From Hydrogenophaga sp. (lineage in GTDB: Bacteria; Pseudomonadota; Gammaproteobacteria; Burkholderiales; Burkholderiaceae_C), in assembly GCA_018333605.1 (NCBI GenBank), contig JAGXSV010000082.1, positions 1-64,000 on the forward strand: a DNA stretch of 64,000 nucleotides. Direction: 5' to 3'. This document shows positions 33,103 to 62,064 of this stretch, in pieces. Position 1 is the first letter of the stretch. Every line of letters begins with the position of its first letter. The notes under the pieces are model-generated. The model was given only the letters and a program-made list of their open reading frames with translations, had not been told where the DNA came from and searched no databases. The translations under genes were made by a program, and so were the position numbers.

Positions 33103-33130
33103 AAAAAACCGCGCCGTAGCGCGGTTTTTT
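33103..33130. terminator. Bidirectional intrinsic terminator, ompA-like gene
   Basis: AAAAAACCGCGC (33103-33114) and GCGCGGTTTTTT (33119-33130) are perfect complements around a 4-base loop. On the minus strand it begins 19 bases past the stop of the OmpA-family gene and ends with six T, a textbook terminator; the plus-strand version is equally good. Confidence 0.92.
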
Positions 33131-43989: not shown

Positions 43990-44016
43990 GGGTGGATGCG
44001 TCGCATCCACCCTTTT
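43990..44016 (+). terminator. Intrinsic terminator after rpsA
   Basis: GGGTGGATGC and GCATCCACCC (43990-43999 and 44003-44012) form a 10-bp stem with a 3-base loop, followed by TTTT, 13 bases after the rpsA stop. It should cut off much of the rpsA message from ihfB. Confidence 0.85.
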
Positions 44017-56546: not shown

Positions 56547-56801
56547 CTAGCCACCGGCGATGGGCGGCCAGATGGCCAGCACATCGCCCTCCATCAGCGT
56601 GGCCGTCATGCGCTTTTCGGGCTCGATGTACTTGCCGTTCACCAGGACCAGATGCACCAGCTTGGGCGGCAAGCCAAAGGGTTCAATGATTTTGCTGATG
56701 GGCAAGGCCGGATCGATTTCGAGCGCGATCTGGTTGCTGCGCCGGGCGTCGGCGGGCAAATAGTCGGTGAGCGTGGCAAACAGTTTGAGCGTGATGTTCA
56801 T
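56547..56801 (-). CDS. MoaD/ThiS-like sulfur carrier of the aor operon
   Basis: An 84-residue ubiquitin-like protein that ends in the Gly-Gly tail (WPPIAGG) needed for thiocarboxylate formation. Its sequence NITLKLFATLTDYLP, then LVNGKYIEPEKRMTATLMEGDVLAIWP, is typical of MoaD. MoaD makes molybdopterin; a copy inside an AOR operon likely serves the tungstopterin of AorB. The ATG at 56801 is used; a start at 56810 is also possible. Confidence 0.85.
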   Translation of the reverse strand: MNITLKLFATLTDYLPADARRSNQIALEIDPALPISKIIEPFGLPPKLVHLVLVNGKYIEPEKRMTATLMEGDVLAIWPPIAGG

Positions 56802-56904: not shown

Positions 56905-58254
56905 TCAACGGCGGCGCTCGTCGGCAGCGCCGCTCCAATGGCCCTGGCCCTGCGCGCTGGCCAGGTAGGCGTCCATCAGCCGGGTTGGGTCGTGCATGAG
57001 CTTGTCTTTCCACTCGCCCAGGCGCACCTGGCCTTCCACCAGGCCGCGCATCACGCCCACATGGTCCGTCCAGCCCACCGAGTTGCAGCCCACCATCACA
57101 TCGTCTTTGAACTGCAGGCTCAGGTGGCGGCCCGAGGCCTTGTCGGTCAGCTCGGCGTGTTCACCACCAGGCACGCCCTCCCAGTTGCCAAAGCTGGTGG
57201 AAATCATGCCGAGCGTGTCCAGCACGTTGATCTGCGTCACGCCCTTCAGGTCGGCCCGCTGGCCCGCCATGTTGAGCGCTGCCACGCGGGCTTGCTCGGC
57301 GGCGTTGGGCTGGATGGCGCTGACGATGGTTTTTCCGCTCACCTTGTCAAAGGCCTCGGCGCAATCGCCCGCTGCATAAATGCCCGGCACATTGGTTTGC
57401 AGGGTTTCGTCGGTCAACACACCCACCAGGCAGCGCACGCCACTGTGTTCCAGGAATCCGATGTTGGGTCTGACACCGGTGGCGCTGATAACCAGATCGG
57501 CCTCCAGATGTTCACCCGTTGAGAGCCGCACGCGCATCTTGCCGCTGGCTTTCTCGGTCGAACCGATGCCGACCATTTCAGCAATCTTGCCCAGCAAACC
57601 GGGCTCGGCGCCATCGTCACGCTCAATCGCTTCCACCCGCGCACCGGTGTACACCTTCACACCCTTGGTGGCACACCAGTCTTTGATCATGCCGCCCGCC
57701 GTGGGGCCCATCATGCGCGGCACCATGCGGTCGCCCATTTCCACCACCGACAGGTCCACCCCGCGCTGCTGCAGCGCTTCCATGATGATGCAGCCGATGA
57801 AACCTGCGCCCATTTGCAACACCTTGGCGCCGGGTTGCGCCAGGTTGGCAATGGCGCGTGCGTCGGCCAGTGTCCAGCAGCTGTGCACACCGGGGCCGTT
57901 GATGCCGGGAATGGGCGGCGTGGCGGGCGACGAGCCGGTGGCGATCAGCAGCTTGTCAAAAGCCAGGGTGTTGCCGTCGCTCAGCGCCAGCGTGCGCTTG
58001 GCCGAGTCCAGCACTTTGGCGCGAACACCGCGGAACACCTGGATGTTCAGCGCTTCAAAATGTCCCGCTGAGTGGCGCAGGTGCGTGCCCTCCTCGCCCA
58101 CCTTGCCGATGAGCAGGTAGGGAATGGCCATGCGCGAATACGGTGCTTCGTTTTCGTCGCCCACGATGGTGATTCGGTCGTGGGGCGCGTGCTTGCGAAG
58201 GGTCTCGGCGGCAATGACACCGGCCGGGCCGGCGCCGAGGATGACGTGGTGCAT
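56905..58254 (-). CDS. aorC: AOR FAD/NAD-linked subunit AorC
   Basis: A 449-residue pyridine-nucleotide-disulfide-family flavoprotein. The FAD motif VILGAGPAGVIAAETL is at the N-terminus. The NAD motif MGAGFIGCIIMEALQQ is near residue 150, and IYAAGDCAEAFDKVSGK is a second FAD contact. In the Aromatoleum aromaticum enzyme the AorC subunit passes electrons between FeS centres and NAD. It follows aorB across a terminator hairpin. The ATG has AGGAG upstream. Confidence 0.88.
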   Translation of the reverse strand: MHHVILGAGPAGVIAAETLRKHAPHDRITIVGDENEAPYSRMAIPYLLIGKVGEEGTHLRHSAGHFEALNIQVFRGVRAKVLDSAKRTLALSDGNTLAFDKLLIATGSSPATPPIPGINGPGVHSCWTLADARAIANLAQPGAKVLQMGAGFIGCIIMEALQQRGVDLSVVEMGDRMVPRMMGPTAGGMIKDWCATKGVKVYTGARVEAIERDDGAEPGLLGKIAEMVGIGSTEKASGKMRVRLSTGEHLEADLVISATGVRPNIGFLEHSGVRCLVGVLTDETLQTNVPGIYAAGDCAEAFDKVSGKTIVSAIQPNAAEQARVAALNMAGQRADLKGVTQINVLDTLGMISTSFGNWEGVPGGEHAELTDKASGRHLSLQFKDDVMVGCNSVGWTDHVGVMRGLVEGQVRLGEWKDKLMHDPTRLMDAYLASAQGQGHWSGAADERRR

Positions 58255-58272
58255 CTGGTTCTCCTGCGAAAC

Positions 58273-58300
58273 AAAAAGGGGCAGCTGTTCTGGCTGCCCC
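58273..58300 (-). terminator. Intrinsic terminator between aorB and aorC
   Basis: On the minus strand GGGGCAGC and GCTGCCCC form a perfect 8-bp stem (58278-58285 and 58293-58300) around a 7-base loop, followed by TTTTT (58273-58277). It begins 42 bases after the aorB stop and ends just before the aorC ribosome-binding site. It should lower aorC expression relative to aorA and aorB. Confidence 0.85.
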
Positions 58301-58341
58301 CGCTGAGTTGACGGGTCGCGGAGGCGATCCTGAAACCGATC

Positions 58342-60189
58342 TCAGAGGCTCAGGCGGGCCTTGGTCTCGGCGGTCGGGCGGCCTTCCGCGTCCCAACCGC
58401 GCGCGGCGTAGTACTTGGGCAGCATCTCAGGCAGCTTGCTGACCATGCCTTTGGAGGCACCGGTCTTGGCGGCTTCGGTCAGCAGGCGCTTGGGCAGGCT
58501 GTCGTCCTTGGCGGTGAAGCCGGCGGCGTTGTTGAATTCTCGCTCCATGTTCCAGATGCGCTCACCGATCTTCTCCAGCTCTTCGGTGGTGAATTCCTCG
58601 TTGCAAGCGGCTTGCAGTTGCGGTGCCAGGTCGGCCACACCCCAGGCAAACGTGGTGAACACGCACAGGCCCGACGAGTCGAACGCGGCGGTCGCGTCCT
58701 GGAACGCCTTCACCAGTTCGGGCTTGCCCTCAGACTCGACCGGATCGGTCTTGACTGGAATACCCAGCACTTCAGAAGCAATGGTGTAGCCGCGCAGGTG
58801 GCAGGCGCCCCGGTTGCTGGTGGCGTAAGCCAGGCCAATGCCCTGGATGGCACGGCCGTCGTAGGCCGGGAATTCCTGGCCCTTGACGCTCATGGACAGA
58901 TCAGGGTGGCCGTACTTCTCGGTCAGGCGCTTGGAGCCCATGCCAATTTCTTTGCCAAAGCCTTCACCGCGGGCGGTGATTTCGGCAAAGTGGGCCAGCG
59001 CTTGTGCCGAGCCAAACTTGGCATCAATGCCCAGTTGCTCTGCGGTCAGCACGCCCATTTCGTACAGTTCCATCACCGCGCCCACGGTGGCGCCGAAGCT
59101 GATCGGGTCAAAGCCCTCTTCGTTGCACAGCAGGTTGGCGTATTGCAGCGCTTCCAGGTCGTTCACACCGTTGGCCGCACCCAGCGCCCAGGCGGCTTCG
59201 TATTCCAGACCGCCGTTGGCACCCCAGTACTGCGGCTTGTTGGCCACGGTGAAATGGCCCTCGTCCATCTTGCTGATGCGGCCGCAGGCAATGGTGCAGC
59301 CAAAGCAGGCCTGGTTGGTCACCAGGTGCTTCTTGCCGTCGCTTTCGCGCGGTGTCACCATGGCTTCGGCCGAAATGTCTTTGGCGCCTTCGAACTGCAC
59401 GTCGCGGTGGTTGCGGGTGGGCAGCGCACCGATTTCGTTGATCACGTTCATGAGCACCTGCGTGCCGTAAGCCGGCAGGCCCTGGCCCGTGACCGCGTTT
59501 TCGGCCAGGATCTTCTTTTTCTCGAAGGTGGTCTTCATGAAGGCCTTCGGGTCGCGGATGTTGCCCACGCCCTTGGTGCCGCGCACGGCAATGGCCTTGA
59601 GGTTTTTGCTGCCCATGACGGCACCCACACCCGAGCGGCCAGCCGCGCGGTGCAGGTCGTTCACCACCGCCGCATACAGCACGCCGTTTTCACCGGCCTT
59701 GCCAATGCTGGACACCCGCACCAGCGGATCTTGCAGGCTGGACTTGAGGATTTCTTCGGTCTTCCAGACACTCTGTCCCCAGAGGTGGCTGGCGTCGCGC
59801 AGCTCCACCTCGTCGTCGTTGATGTACAGGTACACCGGCTTTTCCGAGCGACCTTCAAAAATGACCATGTCCCAGCCGGCCATCTTGAACTCGGCACCCC
59901 AGTAGCCGCCCGAGTTGGAACAGGCGATGGCGCCGGTCAGTGGGCCCTTGGTGATCACCGTGTAACGGCCCCCGGTGGAGGCCATGGTGCCGGTCAGCGG
60001 GCCGGTGGCCCAGATGATCTTGTTCTCGGGCGACAGCGGATCCACTTTGGGATCGACTTCGTTGATCAGGTATTTGCTACCCAGGCCGCGCGAACCGATG
60101 TAGGCACGCGCCCACTCCATGTTCAGCGGTTCGGATTTCACGGTGCCCTCGGTCAGATTGACGCGGAGGATTTTTCCAGCCCATGACAT
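58342..60189 (-). CDS. aorB: Tungsten aldehyde:ferredoxin oxidoreductase catalytic subunit AorB
   Basis: A 615-residue protein of the AOR family. The [4Fe-4S] cysteines are C295, C298 and C302 (CFGCTIAC) with C509 in DSSGLCVF. Tungstopterin contacts fit the stretches IGSRGLGSKYL, ATGPLTGTMAST and DLEALQY; H464 in GACHLRGY is a likely active-site histidine. It oxidises aldehydes to acids, or can reduce acids, in the cytoplasm. It is preceded by aorA (37 bases) and has its own AGGAG. Whether the metal is W or Mo is not visible, but the family uses W. Confidence 0.96.
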   Translation of the reverse strand: MSWAGKILRVNLTEGTVKSEPLNMEWARAYIGSRGLGSKYLINEVDPKVDPLSPENKIIWATGPLTGTMASTGGRYTVITKGPLTGAIACSNSGGYWGAEFKMAGWDMVIFEGRSEKPVYLYINDDEVELRDASHLWGQSVWKTEEILKSSLQDPLVRVSSIGKAGENGVLYAAVVNDLHRAAGRSGVGAVMGSKNLKAIAVRGTKGVGNIRDPKAFMKTTFEKKKILAENAVTGQGLPAYGTQVLMNVINEIGALPTRNHRDVQFEGAKDISAEAMVTPRESDGKKHLVTNQACFGCTIACGRISKMDEGHFTVANKPQYWGANGGLEYEAAWALGAANGVNDLEALQYANLLCNEEGFDPISFGATVGAVMELYEMGVLTAEQLGIDAKFGSAQALAHFAEITARGEGFGKEIGMGSKRLTEKYGHPDLSMSVKGQEFPAYDGRAIQGIGLAYATSNRGACHLRGYTIASEVLGIPVKTDPVESEGKPELVKAFQDATAAFDSSGLCVFTTFAWGVADLAPQLQAACNEEFTTEELEKIGERIWNMEREFNNAAGFTAKDDSLPKRLLTEAAKTGASKGMVSKLPEMLPKYYAARGWDAEGRPTAETKARLSL

Positions 60190-60226: not shown

Positions 60227-60703
60227 TTAAGCTGCCGAAGGCTGGTTGCCCAGCTTGTCGGCCCACTGTTTCATCTTGTCCATGCCGGTCCAGTTGGCAT
60301 CGATGAAGGTGATGGCGGCAGTGGGGCACGCCTCGACGCAAGCCGGGTCGCCGCCGCACAGGTCGCACTTCTGCACCTTGCCGGTTTCCTGCACGTAGTT
60401 GATGGTGCCAAACGGGCAGGCGATGGTGCAGACCTTGCAGCCCACGCAGGTGGTTTCGTTGACCACCTTGGCGCCGGTGACCTTGTCCACCGTGATGGCC
60501 TCCACCGGGCATGCATGCAGGCACCAGGCTTCGTCACATTGCGTACAGGTGTAGGGCACTTTTTTGCCGGTATGGTGAAAGTCAAACACCTTGATGCGCG
60601 ATTTCGACGTGGCGTAGGTGCCGTAGTTCTCGAAAGAACAGGCCATTTCGCACTGCAAGCATCCGGTGCATTTGTCCGGGTTGATGTGCAGGACTTTCTG
60701 CAT
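60227..60703 (-). CDS. aorA: AOR polyferredoxin subunit AorA
   Basis: A 158-residue ferredoxin-like protein with 16 cysteines in four groups of four: 12-22 (CTGCLQCEMAC), 53-65 (CTQCDEAWCLHAC), 86-96 (CVGCKVCTIAC) and 113-126 (CDLCGGDPACVEAC). This fits four [4Fe-4S] clusters wiring electrons from AorB to AorC. The same subunit set (AorABC) is known in Aromatoleum aromaticum. It is the first gene of the operon, with AGGAGA upstream, and is divergent from the GAF/Fis-type regulator. Confidence 0.94.
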   Translation of the reverse strand: MQKVLHINPDKCTGCLQCEMACSFENYGTYATSKSRIKVFDFHHTGKKVPYTCTQCDEAWCLHACPVEAITVDKVTGAKVVNETTCVGCKVCTIACPFGTINYVQETGKVQKCDLCGGDPACVEACPTAAITFIDANWTGMDKMKQWADKLGNQPSAA

Positions 60704-60763: not shown

Positions 60764-60789
60764 GCCTAAGCATTGTTGAAGGCTTAGGC
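60764..60789. promoter_or_regulatory. Inverted repeat in the aor / regulator intergenic region
   Basis: GCCTAAGC and GCTTAGGC are perfect 8-base arms separated by 10 bases. The site lies about 60 bases before aorA, suited to a dimeric regulator such as the divergent GAF/Fis-type protein. It could also fold as RNA. Confidence 0.6.
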
Positions 60790-60927: not shown

Positions 60928-62064
60928 ATGAACACAAGTCCGCTACAGCCCGGCACAGCAACCGCCACCGACCGCCTGGCGCTGATCGAAAGCGCACGCC
61001 GTGCGGTTTTGAATGAAGGCGGCTTGCACGCGGCGCCCTGGGTGGAACCCTGGATCGACCGCTCCTGGCGGCGCTGCCTGGCACACGGTTTTCGCCCCCA
61101 GCAGGCCCTGGCTTTTCAGGCGGTGTCGGCGCCCGCCACACACCGTGCCATCGAAGCCAGCCGTCCGCTGCTGCAAGCGGCGGCGCCAGTCATCCAGTCG
61201 CTCGCGAGGGCCATGGCAGACACCCGCTATTTCGCCATCTTGACGGACGCACACGGCGTGGTCATTGACGTGAACGGCCCGGTGGACCGCCACAACCCCC
61301 AGGCCAGCCTGATCGCCCGCATCGGTGTCGACCTGTCTGAACAGGCGGTGGGAACCACCGCCATTGGCGCCACCCTGGCCGAACTGCAGCCCGTGTGGTT
61401 GCACCGCGGAGAGCACTTCTTTGACGACACCGGCATCTACAGCTGCGCAGGTGCACCGCTGTTTGGACCCGACGGCCGCTGCGTCGGCATGCTCGATCTC
61501 ACGGGCATCCACGTGACCGAACGACCGGCCCTGAAGCACCTGGTGGCGCAGTCGGCAAGAAACATTGAAAATGCCCTCACGCTGGCGCAGCCCCACCAGC
61601 TGCTGCTGCGCATCCACTGGCCCGGCTGCTCACCCGACGAAGACAGCGCGGGCCTGGTCTGCGTGGACGCCGACGGTTTTGTGAGCGGCACCAACCGCGC
61701 TGCCGCCGACATGCTGACGCTGACACCCGGTGTGCCATGGCCCCATTGCAGCGACGTGTTTGCCGTGCCGTTTGAGACCCTGTTTGATGACGCCCGCAAC
61801 GCACGCGCCGCCCGCGAACTGCCCTTGTGGTCCGGCCTGCGGCTGGCGGTCTCGGCCCGGTTGAACACCGACCGGGGCAGAGCCACGCCCCAGCGCCCCG
61901 CAGCGCGCGCCGCGGTACCGCTCAAAGACGTGGAAACCGCGCTGATACGAAAAGCCGTGGAAGATGCGCGTGGCAACGTGATGGAAGCGGCCCGCGTGCT
62001 GGGCATCAGCCGGGCCACCGTGTACCGCAAGCTGGGTAGCAAGCGCCCCGGCGGACCCGCCTGA
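60928..62064 (+). CDS. GAF-domain Fis-type regulator lacking the AAA+ domain
   Basis: A 378-residue protein related to AcoR/sigma-54 activators: an N-terminal part with WIDRSWRRCLAHGFRP and a GAF-like sensor domain (FAILTDAHGVVIDVNG, then GVDLSEQAVGTTAIGATL, then YSCAGAPLFGPDGRCVGMLDLTGI). The C-terminus has a Fis-type helix-turn-helix, EDARGNVMEAARVLGISRATVYRKL. The AAA+ ATPase domain with GAFTGA, needed for sigma-54 activation, is absent. It therefore cannot open sigma-54 promoters itself and probably acts as a sigma-70 regulator or repressor of the divergent aor operon. The effector may be an aldehyde or aromatic compound. Confidence 0.88.
   Translation: MNTSPLQPGTATATDRLALIESARRAVLNEGGLHAAPWVEPWIDRSWRRCLAHGFRPQQALAFQAVSAPATHRAIEASRPLLQAAAPVIQSLARAMADTRYFAILTDAHGVVIDVNGPVDRHNPQASLIARIGVDLSEQAVGTTAIGATLAELQPVWLHRGEHFFDDTGIYSCAGAPLFGPDGRCVGMLDLTGIHVTERPALKHLVAQSARNIENALTLAQPHQLLLRIHWPGCSPDEDSAGLVCVDADGFVSGTNRAAADMLTLTPGVPWPHCSDVFAVPFETLFDDARNARAARELPLWSGLRLAVSARLNTDRGRATPQRPAARAAVPLKDVETALIRKAVEDARGNVMEAARVLGISRATVYRKLGSKRPGGPA

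Follow-up and report, generated by a model that had tools for sequence, protein, structure and literature searches.

How the length of filament-forming enzymes is controlled is, to our knowledge, mostly an open question. The aor operon studied here raises it within a single intercistronic gap. In the window, that is, the whole 64,000-nucleotide stretch of Hydrogenophaga DNA that was analysed, a hairpin with a T-run lies between the genes for the filament-building subunits AorA and AorB and the gene for the cap subunit AorC. Does this element fix the amount of AorAB made per AorC, and thereby the filament length? A sequence-only reading of the window had proposed that it does so by partial termination. 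That reading also mentioned several AorAB units per AorC in the Aromatoleum filament, in agreement with the description of purified A. aromaticum AOR as Aor(AB)nC, where n reaches up to 4 and each filament has one AorC (PMC10413684).

The aor operon and the hairpin between aorB and aorC

The minus strand of the window carries aorA, aorB, aorC and a MoaD/ThiS-like gene in this order (Table 1), which includes the three-subunit A-B-C order of the 8C0Z homologues. AorA and AorC were identified by PDB matching, whereas AorB was assigned by its two AFOR domains and its ~73% identity to a Rhodocyclaceae AorB. The C-terminal helix of AorA, judged by alignment, is present in the window, as the protein aligns with Aromatoleum AorA without truncation. 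The closest known enzyme is AorABC of Aromatoleum aromaticum EbN1 (8C0Z; PMC10413684, PMC6365974), which shares the aorABC order with a MoaD-like gene behind it, the best PDB match for window AorA and AorC, and the AorA helix; filament formation by the window enzyme is predicted. Both aorD and aorE of A. aromaticum are described as MoaD-like (PMC6365974). All matches of a plasmid search with Aromatoleum AorB were below 60% identity.

A divergent regulator gene (60928-62064, plus strand) has GAF and Fis-type HTH_8 domains, the sigma-54 AAA+ domain being absent from its Pfam matches. Between this gene and aorA, a perfect 7-bp inverted repeat, CCTAAGC-N10-GCTTAGG (60765-60788), has one match in the window and none in 100 shuffles, and is possibly an operator.

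Table 1 Features of the aor operon in the window and of the hairpin at its aorB-aorC junction
Feature	Position	Strand	Description
aorA	60227..60703	-	Iron-sulfur subunit with C-terminal filament helix; best PDB match 8C0Z chain C (E 1.4e-77, residues 1-157 of 158)
aorB	58342..60189	-	Tungsten aldehyde oxidoreductase subunit, 615 aa; PF01314 and PF02730; full-length relatives found; stop codon ends at 58342
Intercistronic hairpin with T-run	58273..58300	-	8-bp perfect stem, 7-nt loop, TTTTT
First stem arm	58293..58300	-	GGGGCAGC
Loop	58286..58292	-	CAGAACA
Second stem arm	58278..58285	-	GCTGCCCC, pairs with the first arm
T-run	58273..58277	-	TTTTT
Candidate aorC Shine-Dalgarno	58261..58265	-	AGGAG, 7 nt past the T-run; role inferred from sequence
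aorC	56905..58254	-	FAD/NAD-binding cap subunit, 449 aa; best PDB match 8C0Z chain E (E 7.6e-153); PF07992
aorC ATG	58252..58254	-	
MoaD/ThiS-like gene (aorD-like)	56547..56801	-	PF14451, PF02597; also behind the hairpin; start codon from a home-made predictor

The gap between aorB and aorC is 87 nt long. Its hairpin has an energy of -15.9 kcal/mol, seven of the eight stem pairs are G-C, and the U-tract follows the GC-rich stem immediately, as is typical of intrinsic (Rho-independent) terminators. The sequence-only reading had described the perfect stem and the five T just ahead of the aorC ribosome-binding site correctly; the spacer between the aorB stop and the stem is 41 nt rather than the 42 bases that it gave.

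Only 18 nt separate the T-run from the aorC ATG, and a promoter therefore does not fit between hairpin and aorC. The hairpin thus has the position of an operon-internal partial terminator, between co-directional genes and with a promoter-free gap to aorC, so that aorC mRNA started upstream must read through it. Because a complete stop would silence aorC, the hairpin, if active at all, would act partly. A scan of the 52-64 kb region for sigma-70-like promoters, the only type scanned, found none against 1.6 expected by chance, which is a weak point. An Rfam search of 58000-58700 gave no match at E up to 1. An alternative fold would pair the aorC Shine-Dalgarno with an upstream CUCC; by eye, this partner is missing in L004, one of the four junctions with a type I hairpin.

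Occurrence of terminator-like hairpins in the window

A strict scan (perfect 8-bp stem with at least six G-C pairs, loop of 3-10 nt, at least five T) found two sites in the 64-kb window, compared with three across 200 dinucleotide shuffles together, a mean of 0.015 per shuffled window. A loose consensus scan of the 52-64 kb region gave 14 terminator-like sites against 11.0 +/- 3.6 by chance, not significant alone, and the aorB-aorC hairpin has the most G-C pairs among them. The complete 96-nt junction only slightly beats its shuffles (z -0.89; 32 of 200 equally good), and none of 20 gap shuffles was as stable as its best 44-nt stretch. The strict scan, together with the junction comparison described below, makes a chance origin unlikely.

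The second strict site (33107-33126) is terminator-like in both directions: its hairpin, AACCGCGC..GCGCGGTT, has a T-run on each strand. Another terminator-like hairpin (GGGTGGATGCGTCGCATCCACCC followed by TTTT, 43990-44012) is located in a 74-nt gap, just ahead of the next same-strand gene.

Hairpins at the aorB-aorC junction of relatives

Five samples of relatives were compared. In the genus sample, 46 of 67 genomes matched at 48 places, 45 of which were used after dropping three that end before the aorB stop. The family sample (87 of 299 genomes matched) contributed 66 of its 83 matches outside the genus, the order sample (42 of 399 matched) 26 further loci, the titled-genome sample the best 80 of at least 583 confirmed places, and a sample of the family of G738 (141 of 297 matched) 49 loci. 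Removal of three loci without aorC and 15 repeated junctions from the 266 loci left 248 distinct aorB-aorC junctions. These rows are related by descent, so every count overstates independence. The lenient hairpin+T rule required -9 kcal/mol and four T in eight, the strict rule -12 kcal/mol and five T in eight; junctions of 25 nt or less were called compact and gaps above 250 nt over-long.

A hairpin is found by the lenient rules in 207 of the 248 junctions, 150 with and 57 without a T-run, where the T-run rule admits weak cases such as L266, near A. aromaticum, a long stem without T-run that was scored as 'T-run further off'. Hairpin and T-run stand within 40 nt of aorC in 128 junctions and farther away in 22 (lenient rules); the remaining junctions comprise 28 compact ones without hairpin, nine without an exceptional hairpin and four over-long ones. 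Comparison with other aor operons, which the sequence-only reading had suggested as a check, shows that the hairpin is more widespread than the T-run.

The 45 junctions of the genus divide into 37 with a near T-run, three with a far T-run, two without T-run, two compact, one unexceptional and none over-long, which gives a lenient T-run in 40 of 45, or in 40 of the 43 non-compact ones. The strict rule finds a near-start hairpin with T-run in 36/45 genus junctions, 34/66 in the rest of the family and 36/137 elsewhere. Furthermore, in 191 of 216 gaps of 26-250 nt the local fold was equalled by at most one in 20 shuffles.

The neighbouring boundaries of the same operons were used as controls. Such sites occur at 2/210 A-B junctions by the loose rule and 0/241 by the strict rule, and in the 100 nt past aorC at 9/133 loci by the loose rule, compared with 90/133 past aorB, and at 3/190 by the strict rule; neither control is a perfect match, as most A-B gaps fall below 30 nt and the stretch past aorC can run into the coding sequence of a nearby next gene. 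Local stability against shuffles follows the same pattern, with a mean z of -3.18 in 178 B-C gaps versus -0.40 in 61 A-B gaps, and of -3.32 past aorB versus -0.39 past aorC in 133 matched loci. In a 464-kb background (400 kb of a genus member plus the window), 5/105 same-strand gaps of 26-300 nt have a strict site within 40 nt of the start, window site included. At loose thresholds, however, 26/77 same-strand gaps of 45-200 nt contain a terminator-like site, which lies within 30 nt of the next start in 10/77, again including the window site. It is because of the comparison of B-C junctions with A-B junctions and post-aorC stretches that we regard the junction hairpin as very probably under selection.

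The Aromatoleum junction has a stem without T-run

The AorB of L267 is identical to 8C0Z chain A across 204 compared residues, and we treat this locus as that of A. aromaticum EbN1. The junction found there differs from that of the window: it spans 114 nt and contains a longer stem, GGGAGG..GCGAGGCG with CGCCTCGC..CCTCCC, followed by CGCTTACGCGG and no T-run. Taken whole, it stands out only moderately (z -1.43, equalled by 18 of 200 shuffles), and its best 44-nt stretch was matched by none of 20 shuffles. The titled Aromatoleum loci L178, L179, L181 and L190 likewise have a stem without T-run. In general, absence of the T-run goes along with a more stable best fold, also at GC3 of 0.80-0.90 (-29.5 kcal/mol, n=28, versus -24.4 kcal/mol, n=68; kinship ignored), which fits the expectation for exonuclease barriers. 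In E. coli operons, upstream genes are reported to be protected by 3' hairpins without U-tract (PMC5927463). From the Aromatoleum stems, the more stable folds and this precedent we infer two forms of the element, a putative terminator in the window and a putative decay barrier in Aromatoleum.

The puf operon hairpin is known to relate to the ratio of light-harvesting to reaction-centre complexes. In malE-malF (PMC5927463), as in puf, such a hairpin follows the gene of which more product would be required within a multi-subunit complex, which resembles the aor case. The window shares the stable hairpin 3' of the upstream gene, and A. aromaticum also the stem without U-tract; the window hairpin, in contrast, has TTTTT, and any role of it in decay is putative.

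The hairpin might mainly stabilise the aorAB segment of a processed mRNA by arresting decay, as in malE/puf, with the T-run being incidental. The wider conservation of the hairpin than of the T-run, the more stable folds without T-run and the E. coli precedents (PMC5927463) all agree with this possibility, yet the genus maintains its T-run in nearly all non-compact junctions (40/43), needlessly for a pure decay barrier. We consider this explanation possible rather than likely.

The proposal that filament length depends on an AorAB:AorC ratio fixed by nothing but partial intrinsic termination is consistent with the terminator anatomy in the window (canonical stem and five T), with the lack of room for a promoter, with a hairpin being kept at the junction, often with a lenient T-run (150/248; 40/45 in the genus), and with the one AorC per Aor(AB)nC filament (PMC10413684). 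It conflicts with the lack of a T-run behind the strong hairpin of A. aromaticum, and in 57 hairpin junctions of the 248 in all, so that partial intrinsic termination is not the conserved part. The feature common to the lineages is an intercistronic hairpin whose sequence changes. Moreover, A. aromaticum AOR complexes are described as dissociating on dilution, and even there the filament length in vivo was not known to the authors (PMC10413684). Together with the compact junctions, in which the filament helix is kept (see below), these points make termination alone an unlikely explanation.

Turnover of the stem and tests of covariation

The stems fall into sets that are not alignable by eye, namely GGGGCAG/CTGCCCC (window and sisters), AAGCGG/CCGCTT, CGCCAAGG/CCTTGGCG, the GCGGGGT type and the Aromatoleum types. 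The AAGCGG/CCGCTT family (27 distinct sequences) was selected with a search pattern in which five of the 11 pairs are already set, leaving the other six alone informative. In this family, 48 cells changed on both sides, the covariation score was 0.472 versus 0.253, and 97% of cells were paired, each value being reached by 0/500 shuffles. The measures most tolerant of relatedness were not significant in the same family, with six both-side-changed pairs (87/500 shuffles as high) and 14 further pair types (56/500). In the GCGGGGT and CGCCAAGG families, both-side changes were not above shuffles (two cells each; 232/500 and 182/500 as high).

Compact junctions lack the hairpin

In 28 of the 248 junctions the gap is compact and too short for a hairpin. 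AorA with an intact C-terminal filament helix was found in 26/26 compact loci examined, which are all those of L001-L217 (L285 and L286 lie outside). Loss of the AorA helix in hairpin-free lineages, considered as a candidate, was thus not seen in these 26 loci. It follows that the hairpin is not required for the filament-building helix. The strong form of the earlier claim, that the hairpin is needed for the filament or encodes it, thereby fails the test of refutation that the sequence-only reading had set for itself. On the AorB tree the compact state takes 22 changes for 26 compact of 209 rows, compared with a mean of 24.95 (22-26) for shuffled labels. This scatter indicates that the compact state is hardly inherited and that the hairpin is often dispensable. 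The scattered compact junctions and the two non-significant covariation measures weigh against a strict need for the hairpin.

A shift of the hairpin into coding sequence in compact lineages was not seen when the 26 compact loci were compared with 63 gapped ones, sampled as every third such locus in L001-L217. The best folds of the two groups were similar, with z values of -0.98 versus -0.90 (compact versus gapped) in the first 198 nt of aorC and -0.05 versus -0.41 in the last 150 nt of aorB. The aorC Shine-Dalgarno is weaker in compact junctions, with a mean of -3.6 kcal/mol versus -5.7 to -6.5 kcal/mol by class in gapped ones (p 3e-9, kinship ignored). The difference between compact aorC and other compact genes is small (p 0.03), and the Shine-Dalgarno of gapped aorC is stronger than that of other genes behind gaps of 45-200 nt (p 5e-5). 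These values are no more than suggestive of a weaker aorC ribosome-binding site as a second route to low AorC in compact lineages.

A proposed role in the ratio of aorAB to aorC

In the reading that we favour, the hairpin acts as a 3'-end-forming element within the aorABC(D) operon and would give more aorAB than aorC mRNA, which we hold to be likely on the present comparison. The observations behind it are the anatomy of the hairpin, its repeated presence at this junction throughout Burkholderiales with stems that differ in sequence, the compensatory changes in one stem family, and its near absence from the two adjoining boundaries of the operon. Partial intrinsic termination is the probable mechanism in the window genome. 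Transcription entering from upstream of aorA would in some cases halt at the U-tract and yield an aorAB mRNA with the stem as its protected 3' end, and in others continue to produce an aorABCD mRNA. The cell would thus make more AorA and AorB than AorC and product of the downstream maturation gene. Aromatoleum-like lineages, with a longer stem and no U-tract, could reach the same end through endonuclease cutting and exonuclease arrest. The excess of AorAB would then feed the extension of filaments capped by one AorC; this last step is putative, though compatible with the evidence, and the ratio would be explained equally well by economy on a cap and a maturation gene that are in low demand.

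A farther-reaching version would have both the aorAB:aorC ratio and the mean length of the electron-conducting filament in Burkholderiales set by one hairpin, rebuilt repeatedly from unrelated sequences and alternating between terminator and decay-barrier forms, with a weak ribosome-binding site of aorC bringing hairpin-free lineages to much the same ratio. We regard this version as speculative and, as a whole, doubtful.

Operon-internal terminators that give unequal expression also occur in bacteria. Those described in Methanococcus maripaludis (PMC10450193) resemble the window in having a termination signal between co-directional genes, where partial read-through would favour the upstream product as proposed here; they differ in that part of the aor relatives have no U-tract and that aor read-through is a prediction. 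The kind of element is already known. An application to an enzyme nanowire operon did not turn up in the aor literature surveyed: none of the titles and abstract openings surveyed for aor genes and operon-internal signals mentions a terminator or hairpin between aorB and aorC, and the main texts of PMC6365974 and PMC10413684 never use the word 'terminator'. If the favoured reading is true, a hairpin of ~28 nt that divides the filament-building from the cap-coding genes would be a simple tunable handle, and the comparative set suggests that its function is kept despite a change of sequence and possibly of mechanism.

Possible exchange of aorC within the genus

Among genus pairs with at least 95% identical AorB, loci with type II and type III hairpins share 95.8% of AorB and 76.3% of AorC, whereas AorC identity within type II and within type III is 91%. 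Hairpin and aorC may thus move together in the genus, although types I and III overlap in AorC, with identities up to 96.4%, and type I is mixed, with pairs at 79.2%. Across L001-L040, AorB is ~96% identical throughout and AorC forms groups that share as little as 76% identity, as though aorC and its leader had been swapped.

This pattern could also mean that the element serves aorC translation, as an insulated leader with a U-rich stretch ahead of the Shine-Dalgarno that travels with an exchangeable aorC module. Such a leader would account for the closer AorC identity within types II and III than between them, and for the stronger aorC Shine-Dalgarno in gapped than in compact junctions. However, hairpin type does not strictly follow AorC, as the type I pairs and the I/III overlap illustrate, a strong GC stem is unnecessary for a landing site, and the compact aorC Shine-Dalgarno barely differs from that of other compact genes; a translation leader is accordingly improbable.

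Alternatively, the hairpin could have arisen by chance or have once terminated a separate aorAB unit, and would then have no function today. The apparent exchange of aorC within the genus and the frequent, scattered compact junctions are what one would expect from a relic, but different stems occupy the same place in many genera, sites are nearly absent at the neighbouring boundaries, and one stem family contains compensatory changes. We consider a functionless hairpin very improbable.

Some junctions carry additional sequence. The L037 and L043 junctions contain a similar extra stretch of ~85 nt between hairpin and aorC, and L002, L017 and L018 have a different long inverted repeat ahead of the hairpin; both look like dispersed repeats.
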